Virus record (IMG/VR): IMGVR_UViG_3300046516_000892
Coordinates: 1-21,674 of that record
Direction: 5' to 3' (one strand)
From: a virus
DNA length: 21,674 nucleotides
Part shown: positions 1,534-13,978 of the stretch, piece after piece
How the letters are laid out: the number at the start of each line of letters is the position of its first letter
Position numbering within the stretch: position 1 is the first letter of the stretch
Position numbers and translations under genes: made by a program
The notes under the pieces: generated by a model
Databases searched by the model: none
Seen by the model: only the letters and a program-made list of their open reading frames with translations
Told to the model about the DNA's origin: nothing

Positions 1534-1931
1534 AACTTGGTGAAGTAGAACACTCCAGCCAGAGCACCCTGCCCCAAAGTCTGCACACACAACGAAGCAC
1601 CGGGCTCCCCGATGGGCTGGCCGTATTCAATGCGGTTGGTCAGTGCAAAATCATTCGGCAGGCTCAGTTGCGGCGTGATCTGGATTTTATTGATCTTGCA
1701 GTCATCGCCGCCGCCAACCGTAACGATCAAATCGAGCGTGTTGCCCTTTTGCGTCACCATGAAGCCGCAGAAATAAATGCGCTTGCCCGGTTCACCCGTC
1801 ACCACCGCCACCGGACCTGTCGGAGTGGTGTGACTGAAATACGTCCCAGAATCACACGGACGCGATGTTGTTTGCGCCTGAACGCTTCCACACAGGCAAA
1901 GCAGAAACGCCAGCAAGGCTGCAAATTTCAT
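1530..1931 (-). CDS. Secreted protein with N-terminal signal peptide
   Basis: The protein begins MKFAALLAFLLCLCGSVQA followed by QTTSRPC, a clear Sec signal peptide with probable cleavage after VQA. The mature part of about 115 residues contains four cysteines and short beta-type segments (KRIYFCGFMV, LDLIVTVGGGDDC, SLCVQTLG, AGVFYFTKF). This pattern resembles exported proteins of unknown function that I recall from tail-side regions of alphaproteobacterial phages, but no enzymatic motif is visible. The start was placed at the ATG at 1931, because GGAG lies eight bases upstream. A GTG two codons earlier would sit only two bases from that ribosome site. Confidence 0.7.
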   Translation of the reverse strand: MKFAALLAFLLCLCGSVQAQTTSRPCDSGTYFSHTTPTGPVAVVTGEPGKRIYFCGFMVTQKGNTLDLIVTVGGGDDCKINKIQITPQLSLPNDFALTNRIEYGQPIGEPGASLCVQTLGQGALAGVFYFTKF

Positions 1932-1961
1932 GTCCACTTCTCCGGGGGTATGTCAAAATTA

Positions 1962-2037
1962 ATCGTGACCGGACAGAAAACGGAGTACGTGAGTCGCCGG
2001 GTGGGTTAACTCTCTCCATCATCCGCCCGGTCACGAT
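1962..2037. repeat. 11-bp perfect inverted repeat between TerL and the secreted-protein gene
   Basis: ATCGTGACCGG at 1962-1972 is the exact reverse complement of CCGGTCACGAT at 2027-2037. The 54-base loop holds a minus-strand copy of GATGGAGAGA (2011-2020) and a GTTAAC palindrome. No U-tract follows on either strand, so it is not an ordinary terminator. An operator or an RNA hairpin presenting the motif in its loop are both possible. Bases 2038-2090 hold nothing else that can be named. Confidence 0.5.
2011..2020 (-). promoter_or_regulatory. Minus-strand GATGGAGAGA motif without a start codon behind it
   Basis: The minus strand reads GATGATGGAGAGAGTTAACC here, matching the repeated plus-strand ribosome-site element. 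No ATG, GTG or TTG follows at the usual spacing, and the next gene (1931) has its own GGAG. It may be a relic or a binding site unrelated to initiation. Confidence 0.5.
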
Positions 2038-2090
2038 CTTGGCGTCCTGCCGGTGGTGATGGGTGGGACACCCTGTGATCCAGCAGAACG

Positions 2091-3644
2091 CTAGCCAATC
2101 AACGCATCGATATTCGTTACCGCATCGAGCGGCGCAACGCCGATAGCTTCTGCCAGCGCCACCAGCCCGTCAATACGCCCGGTGCTTTTGTTCTTGGATA
2201 GTTTCCTATTTGCATCATCTTTGCCTTCGACCACCGCGCAGGCCGCACACATCGCTAAAACTGGATGGTTGCCGTGGGCGATTTCCTTCTCTTTTATCTT
2301 TTGCTCCAAGTCCCTTAAAGCCGGTGACATGGATTGTGTCCCTTGTCCGAACTCCACGAAATGCTCCGTGATCGTGTACTCATCGAACCCGGCGTGAAGC
2401 AGCCACGGTTTCAAGTGTTTGAAATTCCACCGGTCAAATCCGATCTTGCGAATATTGTATTCGTTGAACAATTTGAACAGCAGCGAAGCCACGTACTCGT
2501 AGCTCACTGTCTTGCCGGGAGTGGTCTCCAGAAATCCTTTGTTGCGCCAGACATCGTAAGGCACCTTGTCCTTCTTTGCCTTTTCGACCAGTCCTACATC
2601 CGGCAGCCAGAAGGTTGGCTTGACGTGCCATGTATTGTCGATCTTGCCGATCAGTACCAGCGCAGTGAGGTCAGCAACGCTCGAAAGGTCCAGTCCGCCA
2701 TACAATGGCACTCCATGCAGATCAGCAACTGGTCCTCCGCATTCCTTCCAAGCAAATTCGGAAACGAACGGGTTAGCCGTTTCAACTCGCCGGTTGAGTA
2801 CAAGGTTCTCATACTCTGCCTGCCGTGCTGGCATCCGCCGCGCATCTTCGGCCATCGCAAGGACTTCCTTGCGGTTCATGAAGATGTCGAGTGCCGGGTT
2901 GGCCTGCATGATGGCCTCTTCCCCGAACGGGTCAAGATCCTTGTCCGCTGTGTGCAGCCGCAGCACGGTCGAAGGATCGTGCCCCGCCTTGGCATCATCG
3001 ATCAGGATCGACAATAAGTCAGCATCGGTCGGCGCTTGCGTGGAGATGATCACCGACAATGGCTCAGCCTGCGCCGCCGTGGCCGTCTCCAGCGCTTCGT
3101 ACAACGCCGAACGCGGGCCGCGCACTTGCCCCAGTTCGTCGTGGATCACCACCGCTGGCGACAGGCCGAAGTTGGTGCCAGCGTCTGCCGACAGTGCCCG
3201 GTACGTGGTGCCAAGCTTAGGGCAGACCAGCATCTTGGCCGTTTCGCGCACCATGATGACCCGGCTCAGTCGTGGATTCATCCGCACCATCTTGACCGCA
3301 AGGTTGAACACCAGCGCCGCCTGATCTCGCGACAGGGCCGTCGAGAAAATCTGGCTGTTGGGCCGGTACCCAGCCTCACGCCCGCAAAGATGCAAAAGAA
3401 GAATGCAGGCGGCTTCCATCGTCTTGGCGTTCTTGCGGCTTCTCGACAGGATCGCGCGGCGCGTGATGTGCTCGTTATTGTAGATCGCCCGGAAGTCTTC
3501 CTTCATGAACTCGGCCATCTTCAGTCGAGTGCCTACGTTCTTGCCTTCCGGGATGTAGAGAAAATCCTGACACCATTTGATGTTCAATCCGGCCCGTGTT
3601 GTGTCCTCTTCAACGGGTGCCGGTTTCTTCTTACGGCGTGGCAT
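2091..3644 (-). CDS. terL: Terminase large subunit (packaging ATPase-nuclease)
   Basis: This 517-aa protein has the two-domain layout of HK97-type large terminases. The N-terminal ATPase has a Walker A-like loop SRKNAKT (about residues 69-75) and Walker B VVIHDEL (165-171). An ISTQAP coupling-type motif follows near 200. The C-terminal RNase H-fold nuclease shows a first acidic strand YGGLDLSSVADLTALV (about 316-330), IGFDRWN (401-407) and a terminal K..STGRIDGLVALAEA block with its acid near residue 492. It would cut concatemeric DNA and drive it into the prohead. The start is the ATG at 3644, which shares its A with the TGA of the small upstream gene; a GTG one codon earlier is possible. 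TerS lies two genes upstream, as expected. Confidence 0.93.
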   Translation of the reverse strand: MPRRKKKPAPVEEDTTRAGLNIKWCQDFLYIPEGKNVGTRLKMAEFMKEDFRAIYNNEHITRRAILSRSRKNAKTMEAACILLLHLCGREAGYRPNSQIFSTALSRDQAALVFNLAVKMVRMNPRLSRVIMVRETAKMLVCPKLGTTYRALSADAGTNFGLSPAVVIHDELGQVRGPRSALYEALETATAAQAEPLSVIISTQAPTDADLLSILIDDAKAGHDPSTVLRLHTADKDLDPFGEEAIMQANPALDIFMNRKEVLAMAEDARRMPARQAEYENLVLNRRVETANPFVSEFAWKECGGPVADLHGVPLYGGLDLSSVADLTALVLIGKIDNTWHVKPTFWLPDVGLVEKAKKDKVPYDVWRNKGFLETTPGKTVSYEYVASLLFKLFNEYNIRKIGFDRWNFKHLKPWLLHAGFDEYTITEHFVEFGQGTQSMSPALRDLEQKIKEKEIAHGNHPVLAMCAACAVVEGKDDANRKLSKNKSTGRIDGLVALAEAIGVAPLDAVTNIDALIG

Positions 3645-3817
3645 CACTTGTCCTTCGCCCGCTTCCTGCGCATGTAATCGCGCTGATAGGCAACACGGTC
3701 AAACTTGCCTTCGGATTTTGCCTTTACCGGCTTTGGCTCTACCGGCACACATCGATGCACCCGCCCAACCAAGGCAATCATCGCGTTGCACTTAGGGCAT
3801 CTCTCGGTAAGGCTCAT
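3644..3817 (-). CDS. 57-aa Cys-motif protein between TerS and TerL
   Basis: This 57-aa frame starts MSLTERCPKCNAMIALVG and continues with HRCVP, giving C-x2-C and H-x-C clusters that could hold a metal ion as a small zinc ribbon. The C-terminal half is basic (KPVKAKSEGKFDRVAYQ, then YMRRKRAKDK). Its stop codon overlaps the TerL start as TGATG, so the two are probably coupled. The size, position and pattern suggest a nucleic-acid-binding accessory to packaging, which is inference. The ribosome site is weak. The overlap with TerL and the clean Cys spacing are the main reasons for believing it. Confidence 0.7.
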   Translation of the reverse strand: MSLTERCPKCNAMIALVGRVHRCVPVEPKPVKAKSEGKFDRVAYQRDYMRRKRAKDK

Positions 3818-3861
3818 GTGCGGAGTCTAACAGGCCACGGCTGGCAGAGTCTAACAGCCGC

Positions 3862-4320
3862 TCAGGCACGTTCCGCTTCATTCCAAGGTTCGTTATCGCC
3901 ACCCTGATCGTCCGCCATCGTATTGGCAGCGTGTGGCCGCCAGCGTGACTGATTGGTCAGCCGCAGCTTGGTCGCCATCACCACCGCAGCCCTCGACGCC
4001 TTATCCCGCATCTTCACCAGCCACTCATAGCGCCGCATGCCTTTTGCTTCGCTGAGTGCTTCTGGCGGAAAGGCATCGAGCAGGGCTTGAAACTCATTTA
4101 CTTCCTGCCTGTGGCGGCACAGGTCAGCCAGCATTTCCCGCGTCGTCTCTGTCCCAAAGAAATCAGCAGGCTCACCAGCCACGATCTTGCGCCAGATCAC
4201 TGCCTGCGCCTCAGTCAGCCCCTCTGGGGGCGGGGCCTTATGAGTAAACCCTCCCTCGATAACCGTGGGCGCAACCATTGAGGCCGCTATCGCCGCTGCT
4301 GTCTTTTTTCCACGCTGCAT
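3862..4320 (-). CDS. terS: Terminase small subunit (P27-like)
   Basis: This 152-aa, mainly helical protein contains a segment typical of P27-family small terminases: LTEAQAVIWRKIVAGEPADFF (about residues 35-55), then a helix with DLCRHRQEVNEF, then a C-terminal helix YEWLVKMRDKASRAAVVMATKLRLTNQSRW (about 103-132). Small terminases bind the packaging site and hand DNA to TerL. The gene lies just upstream of TerL on the same strand. The N-terminus is Lys/Ala-rich and could start instead at Met15, because neither Met has a strong ribosome site. The assignment rests on pattern and position rather than on a single catalytic residue. Confidence 0.78.
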   Translation of the reverse strand: MQRGKKTAAAIAASMVAPTVIEGGFTHKAPPPEGLTEAQAVIWRKIVAGEPADFFGTETTREMLADLCRHRQEVNEFQALLDAFPPEALSEAKGMRRYEWLVKMRDKASRAAVVMATKLRLTNQSRWRPHAANTMADDQGGDNEPWNEAERA

Positions 4321-4630
4321 TTGTACGCTCAGAAGTCCTTATCTGACGGGCATTTTGAAAGTTTTGATAAGCCCGCGTTGCCGTCGCCCATAAGGTACTT
4401 CTTTGATGTTATCCCCCCTGCCCCCGTGAAGCGAGGATGGGTACCCCATGGAAGTGTTTGCTCGCGTTCTCTCTTGTGATCTCTGTGTGTTCATTGCTTT
4501 GGTAGTACCTTGACCATGATGATGTAAGCGCGAGCACACGATCAACGCGAGGATATTGCTTTGGTTCTCATGTGCTTGAGCGAGATCAATCAACACTCAC
4601 CTATTGAACAAACAATCTCAATGGTACTCT
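4321..4630. other. About 300-bp gap upstream of TerS, no convincing gene
   Basis: No frame gives a credible protein. The longest minus-strand translation is low-complexity, Arg/Gln/Ser-rich and lacks a ribosome site. The stretch contains a C-run (CCCCCCTGCCCCCG) near 4411-4425. Packaging (cos or pac) sites often lie beside terS, so this is a reasonable place to look for one, but no defining cos symmetry was seen. Confidence 0.35.
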
Positions 4631-4720
4631 CTATTGGTACTCTGCCTGTGCCATGTAGGCGTAGGAGTGGGTAGGTAGAACAGTAGCGTTAATCCGCCTA
4701 CTTAGGGGGATGGTCCTCAT
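4631..4720 (-). CDS. 29-aa peptide, last of an overlapping chain
   Basis: This short frame (MRTIPLSRRINATV, ending MAQAEYQ) begins at an ATG that overlaps the TGA of the preceding membrane peptide as ATGA. That overlap is the main support. It has no membrane helix, no cysteine motif and no independent ribosome site. It may be a coupled peptide or a chance frame at the end of the chain. Confidence 0.35.
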   Translation of the reverse strand: MRTIPLSRRINATVLPTHSYAYMAQAEYQ

Positions 4721-4806
4721 CCCACATCCACCAAGAACAGCAGCACAAATATCGACATAGTCACTGCTAGCACAGCACCAATAACAGCAAGGCCACACAT
4801 AGTCAT
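4717..4806 (-). CDS. 29-aa single-pass membrane peptide
   Basis: The peptide MTMCGLAVIGAVLAVTMS continues with IFVLLFLVDVG and is almost wholly a hydrophobic helix. Its ATG overlaps the TGA of the 35-aa membrane peptide gene as ATGA, and its own TGA overlaps the next ATG in the same way. Such chained tiny membrane genes occur in phage lysis or membrane-modifying modules. No homologue was recognised, and a role as holin, antiholin or inner spanin component is only a possibility. Confidence 0.55.
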   Translation of the reverse strand: MTMCGLAVIGAVLAVTMSIFVLLFLVDVG

Positions 4807-4910
4807 ACGATCTGCTCAAGCAGCATCCACACCAGCAGAAACAGCAGCAACCACAGCAGTGTCCATCCCTTAAGGAGACAACGCTTTATAGAGCGCAATA
4901 TCCGCCTCAT
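4803..4910 (-). CDS. 35-aa membrane peptide overlapping the P-loop gene
   Basis: The frame reads MRRILRSIKRCLLKGW, then a Leu/Trp/Phe helix (TLLWLLLFLLVWMLL) and EQIV. A basic, amphipathic N-terminus before a single strong helix predicts a cytoplasmic N-terminus (positive-inside rule). It begins inside the 3' end of the P-loop gene in another frame, overlapping it by 41 bases, and ends with ATGA into the next membrane peptide. The ribosome site is weak; a TTG four codons downstream has GAGG six bases before it and is an alternative start. Confidence 0.5.
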   Translation of the reverse strand: MRRILRSIKRCLLKGWTLLWLLLFLLVWMLLEQIV

Positions 4911-5412
4911 CCACGTCATCACTGAACCAGCCATCAGAGGCTATGCGTCTACGTGGGGTGGGAGGATGCCATCGCTGCATTGACTTGGCTTCCCATGTCG
5001 CAACACCAGCAGCGGCAATGGGTGTGCCACGGGCATAGGCCCTGCGCTTGCATTCCTCAATTCCGGGATTGAGCAACACCAGTAGACCGCCAAGCTTGCT
5101 GCTCCACCACTCACGTTCCTGCTTGTATGGCGCAGCAACAATAAAAAACGCACTTCCTTCGGTCGCCTTGCTCAGTTGTGCCAGCATCATGTTGCGGACA
5201 CGCATCGCGCGGAGCAACAATTTCTCTTCGACGTTTCCCTGCCAAGGCTTGAAGGTTGGATCGATCTTGCGCCGGATTTGATCCAGATCAATTACCGTGT
5301 CTCCGGGAACAGCGCTGTTTCTCACATAGGTCGTTTTTCCACTGCATGGCGGGCCGCAGACGACTGTCAGGGGGATTTTCGATGGTCGCAACCACTTCGG
5401 GTGCGTGTCCAT
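4870..5412 (-). CDS. P-loop kinase-like NTPase
   Basis: This 180-aa protein has a Walker A loop GPPCSGKTT (residues 20-28) after a beta-strand PLTVVC, then VIDLDQIRRKI (40-50), in which the Asp residues fit a substrate or second-metal position. An Arg-rich lid-like segment (ECKRRAYARGT) lies near 120-130. This layout matches AAA_33/zeta-toxin-like and polynucleotide-kinase-like small kinases found in phages, which phosphorylate nucleotides, nucleic-acid ends or sugars. The substrate cannot be read from the sequence. The start was moved to the ATG at 5412, because the upstream extension overlaps two other small genes and has no ribosome site. Confidence 0.75.
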   Translation of the reverse strand: MDTHPKWLRPSKIPLTVVCGPPCSGKTTYVRNSAVPGDTVIDLDQIRRKIDPTFKPWQGNVEEKLLLRAMRVRNMMLAQLSKATEGSAFFIVAAPYKQEREWWSSKLGGLLVLLNPGIEECKRRAYARGTPIAAAGVATWEAKSMQRWHPPTPRRRIASDGWFSDDVDEADIALYKALSP

Positions 5413-5414
5413 TT

Positions 5415-5501
5415 TCAAATCCCGGACACCAGTATCAGGGACACAATGGCGAGGATAATCGCGAGCAAGATCACCAGCCAGTTTTCCCTTACGTATCGCA
5501 T
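5415..5501 (-). CDS. 28-aa membrane peptide
   Basis: MRYVRENWLVILLAIILAIV continues SLILVSGI and stops two bases before the P-loop start. It has a short charged N-terminus followed by one hydrophobic helix. It overlaps the end of the 54-aa gene by 13 bases. A purine-rich GGATGGAAGTGGA stretch lies upstream, but at poor spacing. The size and composition are like other phage membrane miniproteins; the function is unknown. Confidence 0.5.
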   Translation of the reverse strand: MRYVRENWLVILLAIILAIVSLILVSGI

Positions 5502-5653
5502 CGTGTCCACTTCCATCCCTTGCGCATGCAGTAAGCCAGCACATCGGGAACGGATTTACCGATCATCCATTTGACAATCGGCGCAGCCCTGACAACGCGA
5601 TTATTTTCGACAATGACCGCAGCATAGAAATGCGGTGCATTGATAACGATCAT
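5489..5653 (-). CDS. 54-aa hypothetical phage protein (RAAPIVKWM..KS type)
   Basis: The protein reads MIVINAPHFYAAVIVENN, then RVVRAAPIVKWMIGKS, and ends CMRKGWKWTRCDT. The combination of an R.AP.V.WM.GK core with a C-terminal C..KGW resembles short conserved proteins I recall from rhizobial phages, where the function is unknown; this is from memory and unverified. Its ATG overlaps the TGA of the Lys-rich peptide gene by four bases (ATGA), so translation is probably coupled. It overlaps the following membrane peptide at its 3' end. Confidence 0.65.
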   Translation of the reverse strand: MIVINAPHFYAAVIVENNRVVRAAPIVKWMIGKSVPDVLAYCMRKGWKWTRCDT

Positions 5654-5724
5654 TCTTTGGCTTGTTTCTTTTTGTTCTTTTTGGCTGGTTTCTTTTTGTT
5701 GTTCTTCCGTTTCTTTACGGCCAT
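5650..5724 (-). CDS. 24-aa lysine-rich peptide
   Basis: The peptide is MAVKKRKNNKKKPAKK followed by NKKKQAKE, with about half its residues lysine. It has a good ribosome site (GGAG, seven bases before the ATG) placed at the very end of the HNH gene, and it ends by ATGA overlap with the 54-aa gene. The extreme positive charge suggests nucleic-acid binding or neutralisation (inference). It may alternatively act mainly as a coupling leader for the next gene. Confidence 0.6.
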   Translation of the reverse strand: MAVKKRKNNKKKPAKKNKKKQAKE

Positions 5725-5725
5725 C

Positions 5726-6040
5726 TTACTTCTCCCTCTGCTTGTTGAACGGATGTTTTGGATCAGTAGGAAATCCGTCGATTCCTATCTCGGTATTGTA
5801 GCCACGACCCTCTTCCTCTTTTTTTGTGCTCTCATGGCAATTTCGGCAAAGCGATTGCAGATCTCCAAACCAGAACAATTCGTAACTGTCTTTGTGTGGC
5901 ACGACATGATCGGCTACTTCAGCGGGTGCGACCCAGCCTTTCTGCAAACACTTCGCACACAATGGATGCTCACGAAGCTGCTGGCGTGACCGCTTCGTCC
6001 AACGATACTGATCGTACCAACGATTGCGTTCGCGCGGCAT
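5726..6040 (-). CDS. HNH endonuclease (packaging-associated type)
   Basis: This 104-aa protein has a first zinc pair PLCAKC (C28, C31), the catalytic-type segment ADHVVPHKDSYELFWFGDLQSL (about residues 43-64), in which DH precedes the conserved His and N/D region, and a second zinc pair CRNCHE (C65, C68, H69). This is the compact HNH fold frequent near terminase genes, where some members are needed with TerL for specific end cleavage. Here it lies about 1.4 kb upstream of TerS on the same strand. The start overlaps the larger HNH gene by about 70 bases. The stop is one base from the next start. Confidence 0.85.
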   Translation of the reverse strand: MPRERNRWYDQYRWTKRSRQQLREHPLCAKCLQKGWVAPAEVADHVVPHKDSYELFWFGDLQSLCRNCHESTKKEEEGRGYNTEIGIDGFPTDPKHPFNKQREK

Positions 6041-6626
6041 TCCACGTTTTGCCTTTTTGGATACAGACGATGGTATTTCTGCTTACACCAAATCGTGCAG
6101 CGATTTTTCGCTGAGACAACGTCTCACTTAATAAACGAATTTCCAAAACATCTTTCTCGCTTAATTTACGACTGATAGTGCCGTGACCGATCTTATCAGC
6201 GTTATTTTCTTCCCAAGTGGCCCAACGAAGATGCATCGGATTAACACACTTAGGATTTCTACAGGAATGCGCTGCTTCATTTTTATCTAGTGGACATTCA
6301 CCGTGTGCAAGCATGCACATTACCCGATGCGCATTTGTTGACGCTCCATTAAACCGGACCTGTGCATACCCATCTGGCTTTATGCTAAATGGCCAAATCA
6401 AACACTCACTGCCACGGTAGCCAATATGCTGCTTGAGCCAAACAAGTGGTGTGCCACGTTCTGTTTCTTGAATACCATTGGGGTCGCCGCTTCGATGCCA
6501 CCGCTTGTAATGCTTACAGCACCAGCCTCTAGCGTAGTGCTCGCCGTTACATCCTGAAATGCTGCACATCACAAGCATCCGCTGGCGTTGCGGGTAACGC
6601 CCATACAAAATTACCCGCAAATGCAT
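5970..6626 (-). CDS. HNH homing-type endonuclease with N-terminal Cys cluster and C-terminal HTH
   Basis: This 218-aa protein shows three parts. An N-terminal Cys/His cluster runs C-x4-C..GWCCKHYKRWHRSGDP (about residues 21-49). An HNH_3-type core has NAHRVMCMLAHGE (98-110), AAHSCRNPKCVNPMHLRW (118-135) and EENNADK. A C-terminal helix-turn-helix, LSQRKIAARFGVSRNTI (170-186), is followed by the GKTW motif seen in homing endonucleases. This supports a self-propagating or site-specific nuclease. Initiation could be at Met17 or Met20 rather than Met1, because the Met1 ribosome site is too close. It follows the NusG-like gene by about ten bases and overlaps the next HNH gene. Confidence 0.82.
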   Translation of the reverse strand: MHLRVILYGRYPQRQRMLVMCSISGCNGEHYARGWCCKHYKRWHRSGDPNGIQETERGTPLVWLKQHIGYRGSECLIWPFSIKPDGYAQVRFNGASTNAHRVMCMLAHGECPLDKNEAAHSCRNPKCVNPMHLRWATWEENNADKIGHGTISRKLSEKDVLEIRLLSETLSQRKIAARFGVSRNTIVCIQKGKTWNAARTQSLVRSVSLDEAVTPAAS

Positions 6627-6635
6627 CGCCTTTCT

Positions 6636-7139
6636 TTAAGCAGCGGCGACATCATCCTCACGTACACTGGCACGTATTGTAGTGCCGAGCATCTCAATTA
6701 AAACAGCAACACGGTCTTTTGGAAGTTGACCATCATAAATACCGGTGACGCCTGCAAGCACACCTTTATTTACTTTAACGCTTTGGCCGACGATAAATTT
6801 CTTCAGGACGTAGAATCCATCTTTGTCACAACCTTCACGAATGCCGTTGATAACCTTGTCCGATAATGTCGCTGGTTTGCTGGCCGTGTCCATGATGAGC
6901 CTGCTCAATCCAAGAAGGGAGAGCAGATCGTACCACTGTTGGGAAATTCTGATGAGAACATAACGCGGGAAAAGTGGTTCGTGCCGGTAGGAAAAGTTTT
7001 GATGCTGAACGCGGCGGCGTTTGTATCTGATTTTAGGGCACCATGCCTCATAACCAAGAACCGAAGCATGCCACACCACACGATCTTCCTCGCGTGGATG
7101 CGTGTGAGCGACGGCCCAGCCATCGAGCGCGAGTGTCAT
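6636..7139 (-). CDS. NusG/RfaH-like transcription elongation factor
   Basis: This 167-aa protein has a NusG N-terminal domain (about residues 6-85): GWAVAHTHPREEDRVVW, then GYEAWCPKIRYKRRR and the PLFPRYVLIRI motif that contacts RNA polymerase. A KOW-type C-terminal domain follows (about 115-160): FIVGQSVKVNKGVLAGVTG. Family members bind polymerase and the transcription bubble and alter pausing or termination. RfaH-type paralogues act only at operons carrying a recruiting element. The start at 7139 was chosen because GGAG lies five bases upstream; the longer frame lacks a ribosome site. It is the first gene of the minus-strand arm and lies beside the control region at about 7310-7400, suitable for switching phage transcription. 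Confidence 0.88.
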   Translation of the reverse strand: MTLALDGWAVAHTHPREEDRVVWHASVLGYEAWCPKIRYKRRRVQHQNFSYRHEPLFPRYVLIRISQQWYDLLSLLGLSRLIMDTASKPATLSDKVINGIREGCDKDGFYVLKKFIVGQSVKVNKGVLAGVTGIYDGQLPKDRVAVLIEMLGTTIRASVREDDVAAA

Positions 7140-7310
7140 CGATTCTCCAAGTACTGGTGTTCGCGCGATTCGGCAGGCCCAACGTATTGTGTTTTCTGCA
7201 CCAGTTTTTGATCTCAATCAATGGTGCGTCCGGCATATGACATTGGAACCACGGGATACCGCATTCTCACCCGTACAGCCCGCACAGGCCAACGTATGAG
7301 ATGAAAAACG

Positions 7311-7400
7311 CTCCATTTTTGCTATAACTCATTGTAATCATTGACAAATGTATGTTTTGCAACCTCTTGATATGTGTACAGAACTCTATATCTATGTAGT
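7311..7400. promoter_or_regulatory. AT-rich divergent control region with promoter-like boxes
   Basis: This is the most AT-rich stretch between the two arms. On the plus strand TGCTATAAC at 7321-7328 fits an extended -10 element, and TTGACA occurs at 7341-7346 without a good partner. On the minus strand TTGTCA (7347-7342) faces TATAGC (7326-7321) at 15-base spacing. It would serve the NusG arm leftward and the structured leader and right arm rightward. The exact boxes are uncertain. Bases 7140-7310 hold only the NusG leader. Confidence 0.4.
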
Positions 7401-7980
7401 GGGACTCCCCCATGGAGACACCCCGGCTCGCGACCGCACCTACAACGCGCGATAACCACCGGGACAGCCGGTGGCCCGTCTGGCGGGGAAGCGTCTAAGT
7501 AGCCTTTGGCGAAAATCGGGCGCGAGAGTTTCCGAGTTGGAAACCGGTACTAGGCCAGAGGGAAGTAGAAACGAAGGCCCATCTGAGCGGCGCTACGTTT
7601 TGATCGACGGTCCAAGCACTAGCGGCTGAAGACCACAGATCAAAAAGACGCCGAGGGGATGCAGGAAATGCTGGCAGTGTTTGACGCCAATCCGAATGCC
7701 CATTCACACAATTTGTGGATCGATAGCGAGGCCGGTGGTTGAGCGTGTGTGACACTCCACGAATTTACAAAACACTTTGCGGTGCGCTCCATCGCGCGCC
7801 GTGACGTGTTTCGTAGTGATCCAACATCTCCTCTTCCGATTCAACGCCATCATCAAAGCCAACTCCGCAATACGCGGTAGCGCGAAACAGTGAGTCGTGA
7901 GGATCGGGGTTGTTCGGATCACCACGAAGCACGTTGTGATGTTTGCGTTACCGGGTTCGCAAATTTCATTCCTTCCTACA
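7401..7980 (+). ncRNA. Candidate large structured non-coding RNA
   Basis: No credible protein frame exists here, yet perfect complementary arms follow one another. They are CCCCG/CGGGG (7421-7425 with 7484-7488) enclosing CCACCGG-GACAG-CCGGTGG (7456-7474); GTTTCC/GGAAAC (7528-7544); TTTTGATC/GATCAAAA with inner GGTC/GACC across a 3x3 internal loop (7598-7645); AAACAC/GTGTTT enclosing a 9-bp stem GCGGTGCGC/GCGCGCCGT with two G-U pairs (7770-7811); GTGATCC/GGATCAC closing 7816-7922; and TTTGCG/CGCAAA (7942-7963). The order from a promoter-like region rightward suggests a transcribed plus-strand RNA. No known class was recognised, the strand is inferred, and ends are approximate. Confidence 0.45.
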
Positions 7981-8005
7981 TCAACCCGACTTTTGGTGAC
8001 TCACT

Positions 8006-8125
8006 ATGGCTACCAAGATCGTGAAGACACTCTTCACAAAGATCGCCGCCGAGATCGGCCTCGATCTTCTCATCCACGGTGCTGAGCATGCCCATCATTT
8101 TGTTGGCGTGTTCTTCACCATCTGA
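8006..8125 (+). CDS. 39-aa amphipathic peptide
   Basis: The frame reads MATKIVKTLFTKIAAEIG, LDLLIHGAEHAHHF and VGVFFTI. It has a basic amphipathic N-terminal helix, a His-rich middle and a hydrophobic end. GGTGA, six bases before the ATG, can pair with the 3' end of 16S rRNA. It is the first plausible plus-strand gene after the structured leader and is followed directly by a strong hairpin. Function unknown. Membrane association is possible from the composition. Confidence 0.5.
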   Translation: MATKIVKTLFTKIAAEIGLDLLIHGAEHAHHFVGVFFTI

Positions 8126-8126
8126 G

Positions 8127-8164
8127 CTTTAAGCGCGGCCCTGAGTTGGGGCCGCGTCGTAAAG
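8127..8164 (+). promoter_or_regulatory. Intergenic hairpin after the 39-aa gene
   Basis: CGCGGCCC (8134-8141) pairs with GGGCCGCG (8149-8156), and an outer CTTTA/TAAAG stem (8127-8131 with 8160-8164) extends it. No U-tract follows, so it is not a classical terminator. It has the same two-layer design as hairpins preceding other right-arm genes, but no GATGGAGAGAG follows closely. Confidence 0.6.
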
Positions 8165-8226
8165 TTCACATGAATAAAGAGACGAACGCTCTGAACAAGA
8201 AAATGCGGTTCGTCGCAGTCGGGTGA

Positions 8227-8446
8227 AAACCCTGATATCCGGCTTGGCTTCGGAGCACGGCAGCGTGTCTGCCGTGTCGCGAAGCTGTGCGGCGTAAGAG
8301 TCCAGTATCCCAGTCCCGTGAAGCGCGAATATCGGGATCGCATCGGCCCAGCCGAGTCATCCTGACGGGGGAAAGTTTACTGGAACGTAGTGTGGCAGCC
8401 TTGCCAAGCGAACGACCACTGTTGCGCACAGTTGGCCAACTCAAAC
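8227..8446 (+). other. Second structured leader stretch, no credible gene
   Basis: GCTTCG/CGAAGC (8247-8252 with 8280-8285) encloses ACGGCAG-CGTGT-CTGCCGT (8257-8275). TCCAGTA (8301-8307) pairs with TACTGGA (8378-8384) and closes a domain containing TCGGC/GCCGA (8343-8355). The stretch leads into the first ribosome-site motif at 8447. It could be a continuation of the upstream candidate RNA or a separate 5' leader. An 18-codon frame at 8170-8226 precedes it without a good ribosome site. Confidence 0.4.
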
Positions 8447-8456
8447 GATGGAGAGA
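8447..8456 (+). promoter_or_regulatory. GATGGAGAGA ribosome-site motif for the 57-aa gene
   Basis: GATGGAGAGA precedes the ATG at 8461 by four bases. Its GGAG is the Shine-Dalgarno core. This is the first plus-strand copy of the repeated element, and it decides the start: a longer frame beginning at 8287 runs through the structured leader. Confidence 0.8.
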
Positions 8457-8460
8457 AATT

Positions 8461-8634
8461 ATGACGACCTTTACGAAAGTCTGGGCACTGAAATCTGACA
8501 CGATGCACGAAACTGGCAACGTGGTTGAGGTCAGCCTCAAGTCCGGTAGCAAGAAAGAAGTTGTTATCGGCGCTTTCCTTGGCAAGCAGGGTGACAAATT
8601 CCTGTTCGCCACTGAGAAGAAAGAGACGAACTGA
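8461..8634 (+). CDS. 57-aa hypothetical protein
   Basis: The protein reads MTTFTKVWALKSDTMHE, then beta-type segments (GNVVEVSLKSGS, KEVVIGAFLG, DKFLFATEKK). Alternating strands and basic charge suggest a small beta-barrel or SH3-like fold, which is inference. No family was recognised. The start is fixed by the motif at 8447. The stop TGA sits in the left arm of the following hairpin. Confidence 0.7.
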   Translation: MTTFTKVWALKSDTMHETGNVVEVSLKSGSKKEVVIGAFLGKQGDKFLFATEKKETN

Positions 8635-8690
8635 CTTGCGGCATGCAGCCTACGGGCTGCATTGCGGAAGTCACTGAATGATGGAGAGAG
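8632..8690 (+). promoter_or_regulatory. Intergenic cassette: hairpin plus GATGGAGAGAG
   Basis: TGACTT (8632-8637), which contains the stop codon of the upstream gene, pairs with AAGTCA (8668-8673). An inner GCAGCC-TACG-GGCTGC hairpin lies between. GATGGAGAGAG (8680-8690) follows, four bases before the ATG at 8694. Because the stop codon is in the stem, a terminating ribosome would open the outer helix. Confidence 0.75.
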
Positions 8691-8693
8691 AAA

Positions 8694-8936
8694 ATGCTTA
8701 CCCGTGTTCACGGCAAGCTTCGGTTCTTTAATCGCATCCAAACGGTCAAAAGGAATCGACCCGGTCACTACTCAGTCACTGCGCCGCATGGCGAGTGGAA
8801 AATCTTCGGCGGCAAACATGCTGGCGGAAGATCAAATGAGTGGTTCTTGGAGGGCAGTTTCGTTACCGACACTGGCGAGAAGGCAATGTATTGCATCTCA
8901 CTGATGCAGACCCTTCGGGTTATCGACGGGATGTAA
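8694..8936 (+). CDS. 80-aa hypothetical protein
   Basis: This 80-aa basic protein (MLTRVHGKLRFFNRIQTVK, then HYSVTAPHGEWKIFGGKHAGG and a C-terminal ISLMQTLRVIDGM) has aromatic-rich strands and no cysteine cluster or membrane helix. No family was recognised. It starts four bases after a repeated GATGGAGAGAG. A parallel frame beginning at 8662 gives a lower-quality product and ignores the motif. Confidence 0.65.
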   Translation: MLTRVHGKLRFFNRIQTVKRNRPGHYSVTAPHGEWKIFGGKHAGGRSNEWFLEGSFVTDTGEKAMYCISLMQTLRVIDGM

Positions 8937-8950
8937 TGACAACACCGCAG

Positions 8951-9030
8951 CGCATTGGGCTGGCTCGAAAAGAGCGCAGCCCCTTGCAGTGTGGTTAATC
9001 GCTACACTTTTTCTCAAACGATGGAGAGAG
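8951..9030 (+). promoter_or_regulatory. Intergenic cassette: GGGCTG hairpin plus GATGGAGAGAG
   Basis: GGGCTG (8957-8962) pairs with CAGCCC (8977-8982), and GCTC/GAGC with a GAAAA loop forms the top. The wording GCATTGGGCTGG..CAGCCCCTTGC recurs in the cassette at 12407. GATGGAGAGAG (9020-9030) lies three bases before the ATG at 9034. Confidence 0.75.
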
Positions 9031-9033
9031 AAG

Positions 9034-10623
9034 ATGACTGATAAAGTCAGAACTAGAAGTGAAGTTGTTGCTGCTGAAGTCGTTGCGAAGCTACGTGCCC
9101 GCACCCCGGTCATGTGGATCGTGACCAAAGAGGAAGCCCGCGTCGAGCGGTACCTCTTTGAAGCGGCTGCGGCTGCCGGTTTCGTCCCTCGTTTCTGGGA
9201 CGTTGCAGCAGGCGTGACCGACATCAACGGCAAGAAAGACAGTCTCGGCGGGGCAGACCCCGTCGAAACTATCGACGCCATCCTTGCTCGCCACTTAGAG
9301 GCGAACAATGGAACGCAAGAGCGTGGCGTGTGGATTATGCGCGACCTGCCAATTTGGCTTGCCGGTCAACCCGGTGCAGCCACGTTGCGCAAGCTTCGCA
9401 ATTTCGCACGGGCATTTCCTGCGGCGCGCGAAAGCGCACAGGCAATCATCATCGTTTCACCAAACGGCGATGTGCCTGCCGAACTGGCGGATCATACAAC
9501 GGTCATCGAATGGCCAATGCCTGATCGTGAAGAGATTGCCTCGATCATCGATGTGCTGATCGAGCAATACAATCTCAAAGACCTGCTGAAGAATGGCAAT
9601 CGTGAGAAAGCCATTGATGCAGCGGTCGGTTTGAGCGGCGAGGAAGCGCAAGCTTGCTATTCCCGTTCGCTCGTTCAAACGCGCACCATTGATCCTGCGA
9701 TGGTCGCGAAAGAAAAGAAGCGCGTCATTGCACGGGAGCGCGTTCTGGAATGGTACGACCCAATTCCGGAAGGTCTGGATGCGGTCGGCGGTCTTGACAA
9801 TCTCAAGACTTGGCTGAAATCGCGGGCTGCGGCTTACACCGCTGAGGCCCGTGCTTACGGTTTGCCCCGTCCGAAAGGCACCATGCTGGTTGGTATCTCT
9901 GGTTGCGGCAAATCGCTGACAGCCAAGGCTATCGCCACGGCATGGCAATGCCCGCTCCTGCGGGTTGATCTTGGCGCTTTGAAGAGCAAGTTTGTTGGCG
10001 AAAGCGAACAGAATCTCCGCAAGGTGTTCAAGGTGATCGAAGCGCTCGGCTTCTGTGTCGTGTGGTTCGATGAAGTTGAGAAGGCGCTCCAAGGTGCTAC
10101 GTCCGGATCGGCTGACGGCGGCGTGTCGTCTGACGCAATGGGCGCGGTGCTCACTTGGATGCAGGAGCGCACAAGTGATGCGTTCGTCATGATGACGGCG
10201 AACGATGTATCGGCCTTGCCGCCTGAGTTCTTGCGGAAGGGTCGGTTCGATGAACTGTGGTGGATCGATCTGCCGAATGCCACCGAACGTGTCGCGGTAC
10301 TCAATGCCGCGTTGCGGGCGAATGGCCGAAGCAAGATAGCAGTCGATGCAGCGAAAGTTGCAAAGGCTTGCGAAGGCTTCACCGGTTCTGAGATCGCGGC
10401 GATTGTCCCGGATGCACTGTTTGCGGCATTCAGCGACGGTAAACGCGAGATCACGACAGACGATCTTGTCGAGGCGGCAAATACTGTTACGCCGCTGAGC
10501 AAGACGGCTGACAAAAAGATCGCGGCCATGCGTGAGGCTGCGAAGGGCCGCTTCCGGCCCGCAACCAAGGCCGAGGATGCAGGCAAGACTGGTCCTGCTC
10601 TCCGCGTCCTTGATATCGGCTAA
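9034..10623 (+). CDS. AAA+ ATPase, Ycf46-like
   Basis: This 529-aa protein has an N-terminal region (about residues 1-240) with a degenerate NTPase look (TPVMWIVTKEEARVERYL, SAQAIIIVSP), then a full AAA+ module. The latter shows GGLDNLKTWLKSR (252-264), Walker A GISGCGKS (287-294), VGESEQNLRKVF (321-332), Walker B VVWFDEVEK (342-350), sensor-1 TAND (388-391) and the second-region-of-homology motif LLRKGRFDE-like FLRKGRFDE (399-407). The GGLD..K.WL, PKG, G..GCGKSL and DGG..S series is characteristic of the Ycf46 group of cyanobacteria and plastids, whose biochemical role is poorly known. Start at 9034 follows the motif; a longer frame from 8989 would include it. The substrate is unknown. Confidence 0.88.
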   Translation: MTDKVRTRSEVVAAEVVAKLRARTPVMWIVTKEEARVERYLFEAAAAAGFVPRFWDVAAGVTDINGKKDSLGGADPVETIDAILARHLEANNGTQERGVWIMRDLPIWLAGQPGAATLRKLRNFARAFPAARESAQAIIIVSPNGDVPAELADHTTVIEWPMPDREEIASIIDVLIEQYNLKDLLKNGNREKAIDAAVGLSGEEAQACYSRSLVQTRTIDPAMVAKEKKRVIARERVLEWYDPIPEGLDAVGGLDNLKTWLKSRAAAYTAEARAYGLPRPKGTMLVGISGCGKSLTAKAIATAWQCPLLRVDLGALKSKFVGESEQNLRKVFKVIEALGFCVVWFDEVEKALQGATSGSADGGVSSDAMGAVLTWMQERTSDAFVMMTANDVSALPPEFLRKGRFDELWWIDLPNATERVAVLNAALRANGRSKIAVDAAKVAKACEGFTGSEIAAIVPDALFAAFSDGKREITTDDLVEAANTVTPLSKTADKKIAAMREAAKGRFRPATKAEDAGKTGPALRVLDIG

Positions 10624-10624
10624 C

Positions 10625-10715
10625 ACGGTAGCGCATTGCAGCCTCGAAAGAGGCTGCCTTGCAGTGCCGTAAAGCACTCCGGGTTAGTGTCCCGGTTCTC
10701 ATAATGATGGAGAGA
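10625..10715 (+). promoter_or_regulatory. Intergenic cassette: two hairpins plus GATGGAGAGA
   Basis: ACGG/CCGT (10625-10628 with 10667-10670) encloses an 8-bp stem GCAGCCTC-GAAA-GAGGCTGC (10638-10657) capped by a GNRA tetraloop. A second hairpin CCGGG/CCCGG spans 10679-10695. GATGGAGAGA (10706-10715) then precedes the ATG at 10720. Confidence 0.75.
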
Positions 10716-10719
10716 AAAT

Positions 10720-11436
10720 ATGATGAGACATTCAACACTACGCCCCGGACTTCTGGTTAGCTTAAAAACCTCAGTCATGGGCAACGTCTCGTATCAGAGA
10801 CGCGACATTATCAGCGAGGCTTCGCATTCCAAATGGGAAACTGACCGCATCATCGCGGACCCAGCCGAACATGAGGCTGCGTCCAAAGCCCGTAACGCTG
10901 CGCGCAGCCTGATTGCCAAGGTTTGCACGGCTTCTGCTTTCGGGCTGCTTTGCCCTGAAGCTGACTCGGACAAACTTGAAGCGGCGATCAAGGATGCGCG
11001 CAAGATCACCGAGGAGTTCAACTCCAAGGCGGCGCTGTCCCGCGTTCATGTCTACGTCATCACCGGCAAGGTTGCCTCTGACGATGTGGAAGCTGTGAAG
11101 GCGATCAACAGTGAAGTCCGCGAACTTCTGGCCGATATGGAAACCGGCCTGAAGAACATGGACCCCAAAGTGATCCGACAGGCTGCGAGCAAGGCCAAGG
11201 AAGTCGGCGGCATGCTGACGGCTGAGGCTGCTGCCCGCGTCCAGATCGCTATCGATGCAGCCCGTGCATCTGCCACCGCAATGGTTAAGGCAGGCGAGCA
11301 AGCTGCGGCTGAGGTCGATCTGTCCACGATCAGACGGATCAAGGAAATGAGAACTTCATTCCTCGATTTGGATGAAGAGAACGAAATCGCACGACCTGTT
11401 GAAAAGGCCCGTGCGGTGGACTTCGCCAAGGGCTGA
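10720..11436 (+). CDS. 238-aa helical protein paired with the AAA+ ATPase
   Basis: The protein begins MMRHSTLRPGLLVSLKTSV and contains long Ala/Glu/Lys-rich helices (for example KLEAAIKDARKITEEFNSK and AASKAKEVGGMLTAEAAA), a central hydrophobic patch KVCTASAFGLLCPEA, and a C-terminal basic-acidic tail. Coiled-coil or helical-bundle structure is likely. No family was recognised. It directly follows the AAA+ gene in the same cassette series, so the two may work together as ATPase and partner (inference from order). Two adjacent ATGs exist; the first has the usual motif spacing. Confidence 0.72.
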   Translation: MMRHSTLRPGLLVSLKTSVMGNVSYQRRDIISEASHSKWETDRIIADPAEHEAASKARNAARSLIAKVCTASAFGLLCPEADSDKLEAAIKDARKITEEFNSKAALSRVHVYVITGKVASDDVEAVKAINSEVRELLADMETGLKNMDPKVIRQAASKAKEVGGMLTAEAAARVQIAIDAARASATAMVKAGEQAAAEVDLSTIRRIKEMRTSFLDLDEENEIARPVEKARAVDFAKG

Positions 11437-11443
11437 TCGCCAC

Positions 11444-11500
11444 AAGCACTTAAGGGCGGCGCATGTAGCGCCGCCTCATAAGTGTTTAACTGATGGAGAG
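11444..11500 (+). promoter_or_regulatory. Intergenic cassette: two-layer hairpin plus GATGGAGAG
   Basis: AAGCACTTA (11444-11452) pairs with TAAGTGTTT (11479-11487), and GGCGGCGC pairs with GCGCCGCC (11455-11462 with 11468-11475) around an ATGTA loop. GATGGAGAG followed by TAAAAA lies at 11492-11500, ahead of the ATG at 11507. This copy lacks the final AG of the consensus. Confidence 0.75.
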
Positions 11501-11506
11501 TAAAAA

Positions 11507-11848
11507 ATGCCATGCGATACCAGACTACGACAAGGCCAGAGCATATCTGAGCGCAAAGTCGAAGTTAAAAAAGCAGTCAGCGTGTTGGACAAGTTGATTG
11601 CTGCCGGTCAAGTGCGCGTGAAGGTAGGCCCGCAAGGTGCCGTCGCCTTCAGTGCTTGGGCCGACAACGAACGCGCTGGCGTCACCGACGCTTGTGCGTT
11701 CAGACGATTGATGATTACCGGTAGTGCTTTGACGAAGGCAAAGATTGCCCAAGCCGAAACGATGGCCGGTAGATCAATCAACAAGCAAGTTGTTGGTTCT
11801 GGTGTCCACTCGCACGACAACGGTGCGACGTGGCACGGGAAAGGTTGA
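11507..11848 (+). CDS. 113-aa conserved phage-type hypothetical protein
   Basis: The protein begins MPCDTRLRQGQSISERK and has a central GPQGAVAFSAWADNERAGV, then TDACAFRRLMITGSALTKA and a C-terminal GVHSHDNGATWHGKG. The MPCDTRL start and the DAC.FRR..I.GS core resemble a widespread phage protein of unknown function, recognised only from general memory and unverified. No catalytic motif can be assigned. The last seven codons overlap the longest possible HNH frame. It is preceded by a full hairpin-motif cassette. Confidence 0.7.
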   Translation: MPCDTRLRQGQSISERKVEVKKAVSVLDKLIAAGQVRVKVGPQGAVAFSAWADNERAGVTDACAFRRLMITGSALTKAKIAQAETMAGRSINKQVVGSGVHSHDNGATWHGKG

Positions 11849-11850
11849 TC

Positions 11851-12264
11851 GTGATCAAACGACCAGATGTTGTTACTCGTAACTTTTTACATGGTCACAG
11901 TACACGCGACCACGAAACCACTGAGCATAAAATATGGCGTGGGATGATCGAGCGATGTGAAAACCCACGCCATGTCGGCTTCAAATACTACGGTGGACGC
12001 GGAATCAAAGTGTGCAAGCGGTGGCGCGACTCTTTCGCGGCATTTCTTGCAGACATGGGTCCGCGCCCACCGGGAAAGACTCTTGATCGCATCGACCCTA
12101 ACGGCAACTACACGCCGAAGAATTGTCGATGGACTACACCGTCGAAACAACGCCTCAACCAGCGCCCGCATGACGATCACGCACGGGTGCAAAAGTCATG
12201 GGACGGAGGTAACCGAGAAAAACAAAGACGGCGTCCCCGTGACAAGAACGGAAGATTCAAATGA
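11851..12264 (+). CDS. HNH/AP2-like homing-type protein
   Basis: From the GTG at 11851 this is 137 aa. It contains TEHKIWRGMIERCENP, then FKYYGGRGIKVCKRWRDSF, LADMGPRPPGKTLDRIDPNG and NYTPKNCRWTTPSKQRLN. That series (W..M..RC, YYGGRGI.VC.RW, DMG.RP....DR.D..G.Y...NCRW) is typical of phage HNH-type or AP2-associated proteins thought to be homing nucleases or DNA-binding regulators. The C-terminus is strongly basic. It lacks the hairpin-motif cassette of its neighbours and instead has AAAGG six bases before the GTG, close behind the previous stop, which suits later insertion of a mobile gene (inference). GTG at 11830 is an alternative start. Confidence 0.8.
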   Translation: MIKRPDVVTRNFLHGHSTRDHETTEHKIWRGMIERCENPRHVGFKYYGGRGIKVCKRWRDSFAAFLADMGPRPPGKTLDRIDPNGNYTPKNCRWTTPSKQRLNQRPHDDHARVQKSWDGGNREKQRRRPRDKNGRFK

Positions 12265-12273
12265 TGGAGAGAG
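12263..12273 (+). promoter_or_regulatory. GATGGAGAGAG motif overlapping the HNH stop
   Basis: The motif starts inside the TGA of the HNH gene and precedes the ATG at 12276 by two bases. No hairpin is present at this junction. Confidence 0.75.
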
Positions 12274-12275
12274 TC

Positions 12276-12398
12276 ATGAGAAAACTTTTACTCGCTATCC
12301 TGATCGCGTTGTTCGCAATGACCAGCGCGGCTGGTGCCCATGGCGACGGTGGCAAACATTGCCACACCCACGGCACCTACACGATGCACTGCCACTAA
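12276..12398 (+). CDS. 40-aa secreted His/Cys-rich miniprotein
   Basis: The first 20 residues, beginning MRKLLLAILIALF, form a Sec signal peptide with a probable cleavage near SAAGA. The mature peptide of about 20 residues, HGDGGKHCHTHGTYTMHCH, has six histidines and two cysteines arranged HCH-x-H and HCH, an evident metal-binding pattern. Short exported proteins with G..HCH endings exist in bacteria. Whether it binds copper, zinc or another metal cannot be told here. The start follows a repeated GATGGAGAGAG by two bases. Confidence 0.72.
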   Translation: MRKLLLAILIALFAMTSAAGAHGDGGKHCHTHGTYTMHCH

Positions 12399-12406
12399 CA
12401 CCTGAT

Positions 12407-12475
12407 CGCATCGTACAGCATTGGGCTGGGCCGAAAGGCAGCAGCCCCTTGCCGTGCGTTCAAACGATGGAGAGA
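12407..12475 (+). promoter_or_regulatory. Intergenic cassette: GGGCTG hairpin plus GATGGAGAGA
   Basis: CGCA/TGCG (12407-12410 with 12455-12458) encloses GGGCTG/CAGCCC (12423-12428 with 12442-12447) topped by GCC-GAAA-GGC, a GNRA loop. Its wording closely follows the cassette at 8951. GATGGAGAGA (12466-12475) precedes the ATG at 12480. Confidence 0.75.
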
Positions 12476-12479
12476 CCAA

Positions 12480-12584
12480 ATGACAAAACGCATATACCCG
12501 GACAGCTACGACTTGCACAGCCACGCAAGCAAGCTGGTCAATACGCTTGAAGCTTTTGTCCTCCGACTGTGGAGGAAACAATGA
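12480..12584 (+). CDS. 34-aa hypothetical peptide
   Basis: The peptide MTKRIYPDSYDLHSHASK continues LVNTLEAFVLRLWRKQ. Its ATG follows the repeated motif by four bases, and its TGA overlaps the next ATG as ATGA. The C-terminal part is an amphipathic helix. It could be a functional peptide or a leader that couples translation to the ParB-like gene. Function unknown. Confidence 0.55.
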   Translation: MTKRIYPDSYDLHSHASKLVNTLEAFVLRLWRKQ

Positions 12585-13060
12585 GCGACAAGCTCTACAA
12601 AGAAGATGGCCTGCCACACATCATGCTGATGGATCAGGTCTTCACCTACAATCGCACCGACACGGGCGAGCAACTGCACTTCAATGTCTCGCTTATGGAT
12701 CGCCTGCGCAAAGAACATCCGAACTGGTTCTGGAAGCAGGAGCTACCCCTTGATGACACGATCTACGATCTCGTAATGCGTGGGCGTGGCGTCGAGGAAT
12801 ACAAAGTTGAACGCCTCACACCAGAGCAAGTCGATGAACCGGGCTTAGGCGTCCTACTCAACGATGACATTGATGAGGTTGCACCGAATCAGTTTGTACT
12901 AGTCGATGGCAATCACCGGCTGGTCAAACGGTTTCGTGCTGGTCTTCGTGGCATGGACGTGTGGATCACACTGAAGCCGGTGTGGGAAGTATGCTTGATG
13001 CACCCGGCTGATGCTGAGGCTGAAGACTTCCTCAATAAGCTTGTGCCGCAGATGAAATGA
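12581..13060 (+). CDS. ParB-like (DGNHR) domain protein
   Basis: This 159-aa protein contains FVLVDGNHRLVKRFRAGLRG (about residues 105-124). In ParB/Srx-superfamily proteins the DG.HR motif forms the nucleotide-binding (CTP or ATP) box, preceded by a beta-strand as here. The first 100 residues (including HIMLMDQVFTYN and NVSLMDRLRKEHPNWF) were not recognised, and there is no obvious ParB helix-turn-helix, so this is a stand-alone ParB-like domain rather than a partition protein. A GGAGG five bases before the ATG at 12581 fixes the start. It overlaps the preceding peptide gene by four bases. Nucleotide hydrolysis or DNA modification are possible roles. Confidence 0.6.
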   Translation: MSDKLYKEDGLPHIMLMDQVFTYNRTDTGEQLHFNVSLMDRLRKEHPNWFWKQELPLDDTIYDLVMRGRGVEEYKVERLTPEQVDEPGLGVLLNDDIDEVAPNQFVLVDGNHRLVKRFRAGLRGMDVWITLKPVWEVCLMHPADAEAEDFLNKLVPQMK

Positions 13061-13133
13061 GCACTAAGCGCCGCCCCATGCTGGGCGGCGTCATAGTGTT
13101 CACGCATTGTGACCACTGCAACGATGGAGAGAG
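13061..13133 (+). promoter_or_regulatory. Intergenic cassette: two-layer hairpin plus GATGGAGAGAG
   Basis: CACTA/TAGTG (13062-13066 with 13094-13098) encloses CGCCGCCC/GGGCGGCG (13069-13076 with 13083-13090). Layout and outer-stem wording match the cassette at 11444. GATGGAGAGAG (13123-13133) is three bases before the ATG at 13137. Confidence 0.75.
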
Positions 13134-13136
13134 AAA

Positions 13137-13496
13137 ATGAAGCACATGCACATTCATATCCGTGAACTGAAGTGTAATGTCCCGAACCCGCGCCCTGACC
13201 GGCGCAGCAAGGATTGGAATAAGCTGCCGGAAATCAAGGCCGGGAGCCGGTTCATATTCCACGAAGACACCATCTACTCAAGCGATCACCGATACGCTTA
13301 CGAAGGCCGTCGCACTGAACTTGGTAAGTTGATCGAGGAATACGCCGATGTAGTCGGCGCGGTATCGATCAAAGAATTGAAAGCCCTCTATAGCTGCGAC
13401 TGGAGCGGCGATGAAGTTCTTCGCGTCTTGCTCAAGCTTGGCAAGATCAGCGCTGCTGACTTCCAAGCCGCTGGAGAAGCCCCGGAGGACTTCTGA
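13137..13496 (+). CDS. 119-aa hypothetical protein
   Basis: The protein begins MKHMHIHIRELKCNVPNP, has a central beta-type stretch (GSRFIFHEDTIYSSDHRY), and a helical C-terminal half (TELGKLIEEYADVVGAV, GDEVLRVLLKLGKISAADF). It was not recognised, and no metal or catalytic motif is obvious apart from the His-rich start. Complete cassettes lie on both sides, so it is a single-gene unit in the series. Confidence 0.68.
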   Translation: MKHMHIHIRELKCNVPNPRPDRRSKDWNKLPEIKAGSRFIFHEDTIYSSDHRYAYEGRRTELGKLIEEYADVVGAVSIKELKALYSCDWSGDEVLRVLLKLGKISAADFQAAGEAPEDF

Positions 13497-13503
13497 TCCG
13501 ATC

Positions 13504-13567: not shown

Positions 13568-13570
13568 AGG

Positions 13571-13952: not shown

Positions 13953-13978
13953 ATGAAATAATGAAGTGATGCGACACC

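Follow-up and report, generated by a model that had tools for sequence, protein, structure and literature searches.

The window analysed here is a linear IMG/VR virus record of 21.7 kb (21,674 nucleotides). Its minus strand carries genes for an HK97/HK022-type large terminase, a probable small terminase, an AAA_33 protein, an HNH endonuclease and a NusG-like transcription antiterminator; the last is the outermost gene of this strand and is divergent to the rightward operon (Table 1). Close relatives of the NusG-like gene were found neither by a pattern scan nor by tblastn against phages. Across related phages (contigs L039, L078, L081, L086 and L090), as in the window (6636-7217), the NusG-like gene precedes the terminase genes, and in these five contigs it does so without a divergent leader. 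Its position ahead of the terminase, like that of lambda Q, suggests a late-operon antiterminator. A very strong minus-strand hairpin at about 1951-2100 (150-nt z-score -7.3), just downstream of the large terminase gene, is likely a transcription terminator.

The AT-rich stretch between the two divergent transcription units presumably holds their promoters, and no consensus sigma-70 promoter was recognised in it. To its right lies a gene-free leader (7401-7980), followed by a 39-aa ORF that is a possible, weakly supported first small ORF of the rightward operon and for which no relatives were found. The first gene with the usual Shine-Dalgarno sequence of this phage encodes 57 aa. A second gene-free stretch with strong hairpins (8126-8460 on the plus strand, z-score -3.35) separates these two ORFs. 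An 80-aa ORF and an AAA+ ATPase gene come next, and the rest of the operon consists mostly of unknown genes. In bacterial genomes, a scan with the ATPase retrieved AAA+ proteins that were mostly planctomycete, and a single Bradyrhizobium prophage. Among the other contents of this tailed-phage operon are a retropepsin-like aspartyl protease (Asp_protease_2, gag-asp_proteas; 14035-15042, plus strand), a Shine-Dalgarno-like motif (AACGATGGAGAGA) that recurs ahead of rightward genes (8444-8463, 8677-8696 and elsewhere up to about 16200), and the 8-mer ATGGAGAG, with 14 copies in 7801-16200 when both strands are counted.

Table 1. Genes and predicted RNA features of the window.
Feature	Position	Strand	Description or basis
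Large terminase gene		-	HK97/HK022-type
Small terminase gene (probable)		-	
AAA_33 protein gene		-	
HNH endonuclease gene		-	
NusG-like transcription antiterminator gene	6636-7217	-	Pfam NusG 1.2e-11; phrog_6386; E. coli NusG chains, E 2e-4
Divergent control region, presumed promoters	7300-7400		AT-rich; inferred from sequence
5' part of gene-free leader, fold within chance	7401-7750	+	z-score -1.01; 14 of 100 shuffles fold equally well
Over-folded rightward transcript, coding and noncoding	about 7751-16200	+	16.1% beyond shuffles (7801-16200); tiles
Stem-loop A, 9 bp	7779-7802	+	Minimum free energy fold, pair list
Stem-loop B, imperfect 39-bp stem with small bulges and 8-bp apical hairpin	7803-7935	+	Pair probability 0.98 (stem)
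Stem-loop C, 11 bp	7936-7969	+	Minimum free energy fold, pair list
39-aa ORF, possible first small ORF of rightward operon	8006-8125	+	Codon score 0.29
11-bp hairpin just past the 39-aa ORF	8133-8157	+	
57-aa ORF	8461-8634	+	First gene with usual Shine-Dalgarno
c(UACG)g post-stop hairpin after the 57-aa ORF	8643-8662	+	
80-aa ORF	starts 8694	+	
AAA+ ATPase gene, sense mRNA over-folded	8989-10623	+	phrog_8638; codon- and dinucleotide-preserving z-score -7.71
Other post-stop hairpins	10638-10657, 11454-11476, 13068-13091, 13515-13539, 15052-15071, 20626-20659, 21208-21235		

The initial annotation had noted that no frame encodes a believable protein ahead of the first plus-strand gene, and this holds for the entire interval 7218-8005, where codon scores are weak and relatives are absent. 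The best ORFs there, a 55-aa ORF on the minus strand (7765-7932) and a 52-aa ORF on the plus strand (7471-7629), score only about 0.05, and neither peptide-pattern scans nor tblastn found relatives of the ORFs of the region. An intact coding gene was rejected on these two grounds. The 55-aa ORF lies inside the long hairpin described below, starts with GTG, scores 0.06 and has no Shine-Dalgarno sequence; its product resembles a C2H2 zinc finger (YCGVGF...MLDHYETRHG). As to iterons or a replication origin, no convincing direct-repeat family was seen in 7201-8700.

Each of the stems named in the initial annotation is present in the region. The stem of 8+4 bp with a 3x3 internal loop is found at 7598-7645, the 9-bp stem at 7779-7802 (including two G.U pairs), and the 7-bp pairing across about 100 nt occurs twice, at 7676/7776 and 7816/7922. 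The impression that the region is packed with perfect stems is borne out less well, as they are only slightly more numerous than chance predicts: the region has six stems of 7 bp or more whose loops measure up to 100 nt, compared to 2.8 +/- 1.6 in shuffled sequences, and 15 of 6 bp or more, compared to 10.8 +/- 2.6. The minimum free energy z-score of the whole 580 nt is -2.9 on the plus strand and -2.1 on the minus strand. The signal comes entirely from 7751-7980, and 7401-7750 stays within chance (z-score -1.0). The segment 7751-7980 has a z-score of -6.40 on the plus strand (0 of 200 shuffles fold as well) and of -1.00 on the minus strand. This difference between the strands implies that G.U pairs matter, and thus points to an RNA of the plus strand. 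The segment has a fold of little ambiguity (minimum free energy -88.0 kcal/mol, centroid -87.5 kcal/mol), which consists of three adjacent stem-loops, A, B and C, with a mean pair probability of 0.95 in an 800-nt context.

Comparison with known RNAs and with related phages provided no family for the leader. Rfam scans, both at the gathering thresholds and at E <= 5, gave no relevant match, in agreement with the initial annotation, which had recognised no known class; a tRNA and tmRNA search was likewise negative. By blastn the region had only chance matches among 50,697 phage records, 72,556 plasmids and 103 related viral loci, and a search for its exact 18-20-mers in 2.9 million viral contigs returned nothing except one chance match without flanking similarity. 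Single-sequence covariance models of 7520-7656 (R1) and 7796-7944 (R2), run against 34-37 sources, matched the window alone, the next best E-values being 0.08 for R1 and 0.39 for R2; the R2 model also matched its own complement. The divergent layout of the NusG-like and ATPase genes is common to three contigs, L002, L013 and L025. Two of them (L013 and L025) have small genes at the divergent junction and no gene-free gap, and the gap of L002, about 490 nt long, is dissimilar to the leader and unstructured (z-score 0.04). Smith-Waterman alignments of the leader with the equivalent gaps of L002, L013, L025 and L039 did not score above shuffled sequences.

The gene-free region was also compared with the ornate RNA families. 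GOLLD, ROOL and OLE are large noncoding RNAs of phages and bacteria (PMC12286853). It is similar to them in nominal size, but it has no Rfam or covariance-model match and no tRNA island, and more than half of it is not folded beyond chance (7401-7750, z-score -1.0). As far as these tests go, it does not belong to the ornate families. The proposal of a single conserved large RNA of about 580 nt is likewise not borne out, since the 5' 350 nt cannot be told apart from shuffled sequences and no homolog was found.

The z-score of the region is not exceptional in the window. In a 580-nt tiling run with 24 shuffles the region itself has a z-score of -3.8, and eight of the tiles that follow it, mostly coding, range from -4.2 to -6.0; most of the minus-strand-coding half and the interval 17.3-20.1 kb are near zero. 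The stem density, which had been taken to suggest a conserved RNA, is common to the region and the coding genes downstream. The folding energy of 7801-16200 exceeds that of shuffled sequences by 16.1%, and 7801 is the best start for an 8.4-kb block in the window. This block was picked post hoc, and its maximum was compared with the maxima in other phages, for which the baseline is modest, with few shuffles per tile. The best 8.4-kb block averages 4.2 +/- 1.8% in 28 related contigs (range 0.7-9.3%) and by the same measure reaches 8.3% in lambda, 6.7% in Rhizobium phage 16-3 and 3.0-6.3% in four relatives. The contig with the 9.3% block, L015, and the ATPase gene of the Bradyrhizobium prophage L031 represent weaker cases of such excess folding.

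In 300-nt tiles, the mean plus-strand z-score is -3.2 in 7801-16200, compared to -0.3 in 1-7200 and -0.6 in 16201-19800. The left edge of the block is sharp, as the tiles of 7201-7800 average -0.1. The minus strand of the block is also over-folded, with a mean tile z-score of -2.0; the plus strand has the lower value in 22 of the 28 block tiles (Wilcoxon p 1.4e-4, with tiles treated as independent). Base pairs within the block are short-range, with a median span of 27 nt compared to 37-40 nt outside, which corresponds to numerous hairpins formed locally. Perfect hairpins with a stem of 7 bp or more and a loop of up to 12 nt occur at 3.4 times their shuffled number. All of this folding is predicted, for one genome. 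Strong folding is also seen on the plus strand at 20101-20700, around a 93-aa ORF (300-nt z-scores -6.4 and -4.2).

Coding constraint does not explain the excess folding of the block. With codon-aware shuffles, which change neither the protein nor its set of codons nor the dinucleotide counts, the sense z-scores of six block genes are -7.7 (ATPase), -3.9 (p238), -2.9 (p113), -2.6 (p163), -4.8 (p335) and -3.2 (p154). On the antisense strand p238 has an equal z-score, and the other five genes have weaker ones. Outside the block the corresponding sense values are -0.8 for the large terminase, -1.2 for the small terminase, -0.8 for AAA_33, -1.8 for HNH, +0.2 for NusG, -0.5 for p343 and +0.9 for p371. 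Most ATPase genes of 20 relatives fall between -2.5 and +2.5, the outliers being L031 (-6.4; Bradyrhizobium prophage, 6001-7635) and L015 (-3.5), so the excess folding is largely lineage-specific. The synteny of the block with L002 is limited to the genes for the ATPase, p238 and p113; thus the block spans genes of different ancestry.

Strong hairpins of 8-13 bp are predicted just past the stop codons of p39, p57, the ATPase gene, p238, p163, p119, p335, p93 and p183. They are GC-rich and most lack U-tracts. Some have c(UACG)g or c(GAAA)g loops, and these very stable hairpins sit 9-15 nt past the stop codons. In total, five c(UNCG)g hairpins are observed on the plus strand, compared to 0.27 expected.

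The explanation that we favour, with moderate confidence, is that the gene-free region would comprise the promoter side and the untranslated leader of an operon, heading an over-folded polycistronic mRNA and facing the divergent NusG-like antiterminator. The plus-strand transcript would fold little up to about 7750 and would then form the three stem-loops before the first small genes; behind them the mRNA would be over-folded for about 8.4 kb, with hairpins just past many of its stop codons. Computation shows the fold, how far it extends, which strand it favours and that it persists against shuffles in which protein, codons and dinucleotides are preserved; selection for folding would act at the RNA level, on the entire mRNA. 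RNA that is folded and capped by hairpins is not readily attacked by RNase E-type cleavage, 3' exonucleases, Rho loading or RNA-guided defence, which depend on single strands. The folding could keep the mRNA from the first three and possibly from RNA-targeting defence, and the likeliest use of global mRNA folding may be protection from degradation. Stem-loop B could serve as an RNase III-type processing site or a 5' stability element. Tentatively, we speculate that the mRNA of the whole operon has been selected for global folding in a GORS-like manner, and that this folding, the hairpin caps behind the cistrons and the 39-bp hairpin of the leader shield it against RNA decay by the host, Rho or RNA-targeting immunity. 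What counts against the favoured explanation is that the leader occurs in no relative and that the relatives' ATPase genes mostly have z-scores near zero. The observation made in the initial annotation is real but mis-sized: it joins an ordinary part of the leader to the hairpins that begin an operon transcript of exceptional predicted folding.

A discrete lineage-specific structured noncoding RNA of a new class, about 190 nt long (7779-7969) or longer and independent after processing, would agree with the sharply defined, strand-specific fold in a gene-free region that matches no known class. We consider it unlikely, given that no homolog was found in which covariation could be seen, that the 5' 350 nt are not structured beyond chance, and that folding runs on past the element through the coding genes. 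It is similarly doubtful that the region is an antitermination leader, at which the NusG-like protein or the RNA itself modifies RNA polymerase and thereby allows read-through of the hairpin-rich operon. The put RNA of HK022 acts on RNA polymerase in this way by itself, and the window combines an HK022-type terminase and many downstream hairpins with a NusG paralog that adjoins the leader. LoaP, which works via a leader hairpin (PMC12691694), offers a second precedent: the LoaP/dfn leader, too, pairs a NusG paralog with a gene-free hairpin leader. Unlike that leader, 7401-7980 contains no UNCG hairpin and no convincing U-tract terminator, the weak terminator-like site at 7777-7804 being no better than chance. 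Furthermore, the NusG-like gene of the relatives accompanies the terminase genes and not this leader, and two of the relatives with the divergent layout, L013 and L025, have no leader.

The over-folding of the minus strand of the block leaves some room for a DNA-level or mutational cause, that is, accumulation of quasi-palindromic hairpin DNA, e.g. by template switching in replication, without any RNA function. The excess of short perfect inverted repeats also speaks for such a cause. The significantly stronger folding of the plus strand, the almost complete plus-strand specificity of the leader element, and the fact that the block tracks the rightward operon and ends at the divergent region make it quite improbable. 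Finally, the protein-like composition of the zinc-finger-like 55-aa ORF might indicate a real or decayed minus-strand gene with an incidental hairpin, which is highly improbable for an ORF with no start signal, a poor codon score and no relatives in a region whose strong fold is on the opposite strand.

The case is a warning that stem-rich intergenic DNA of a phage can belong to an over-folded transcript and not to a separate noncoding RNA, and that a local z-score needs to be judged by comparison with the remaining genome. The parts of this transcript have partial counterparts elsewhere. Phage T4 has intercistronic C(UUCG)G hairpins, which the c(UACG)g and c(GAAA)g hairpins behind the stop codons resemble in placement; T4 is unrelated to this phage, and the loop here is UACG and not UUCG. 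The minimum target of RNase III is a duplex of about 22 nt, and control at leaders has precedents in lambda cIII and E. coli adhE (PMC5371410). As the predicted 39-bp duplex of stem-loop B exceeds this minimum, it is a candidate for such a role. Similar to the RNase III stems of lambda cIII, T7, T3 and E. coli adhE (PMC5371410), it is an extended, imperfectly paired duplex that exceeds 22 bp and precedes the first genes, but no sequence homology with them was found and the duplex here is a prediction.

For the transcript as a whole, we found no literature report of global mRNA folding in an operon of a dsDNA phage. Phage genomes have a median MFED of about 3% in 120-nt windows (PMC11409064), and RNA viruses reach 7.5-10.7% (HCV) and about 15% (SARS-CoV-2) (PMC7642675). 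Ordered RNA structure on the kilobase scale has so far been a topic of RNA virus research, where it is thought to conceal RNA from sensors of the host. A case with sharp boundaries, on the transcribed strand of one operon of a dsDNA phage, would make this idea testable in bacteria, using synonymous recoding, defined RNases, Rho and RNA-targeting defences. Like the genome-scale ordered structure of RNA viruses, the block has, along kilobases of coding RNA, a folding energy 16% above that of dinucleotide shuffles, consists of many local stem-loops and not of one conserved fold, and retains its excess under codon-aware shuffling in six genes (z-scores -2.6 to -7.7). It differs in being one predicted operon transcript of a tailed dsDNA phage. 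Since the phage bears a terminase and the folding is confined to one block of the window, the block would work like ordered RNA structure without being a member of that class.
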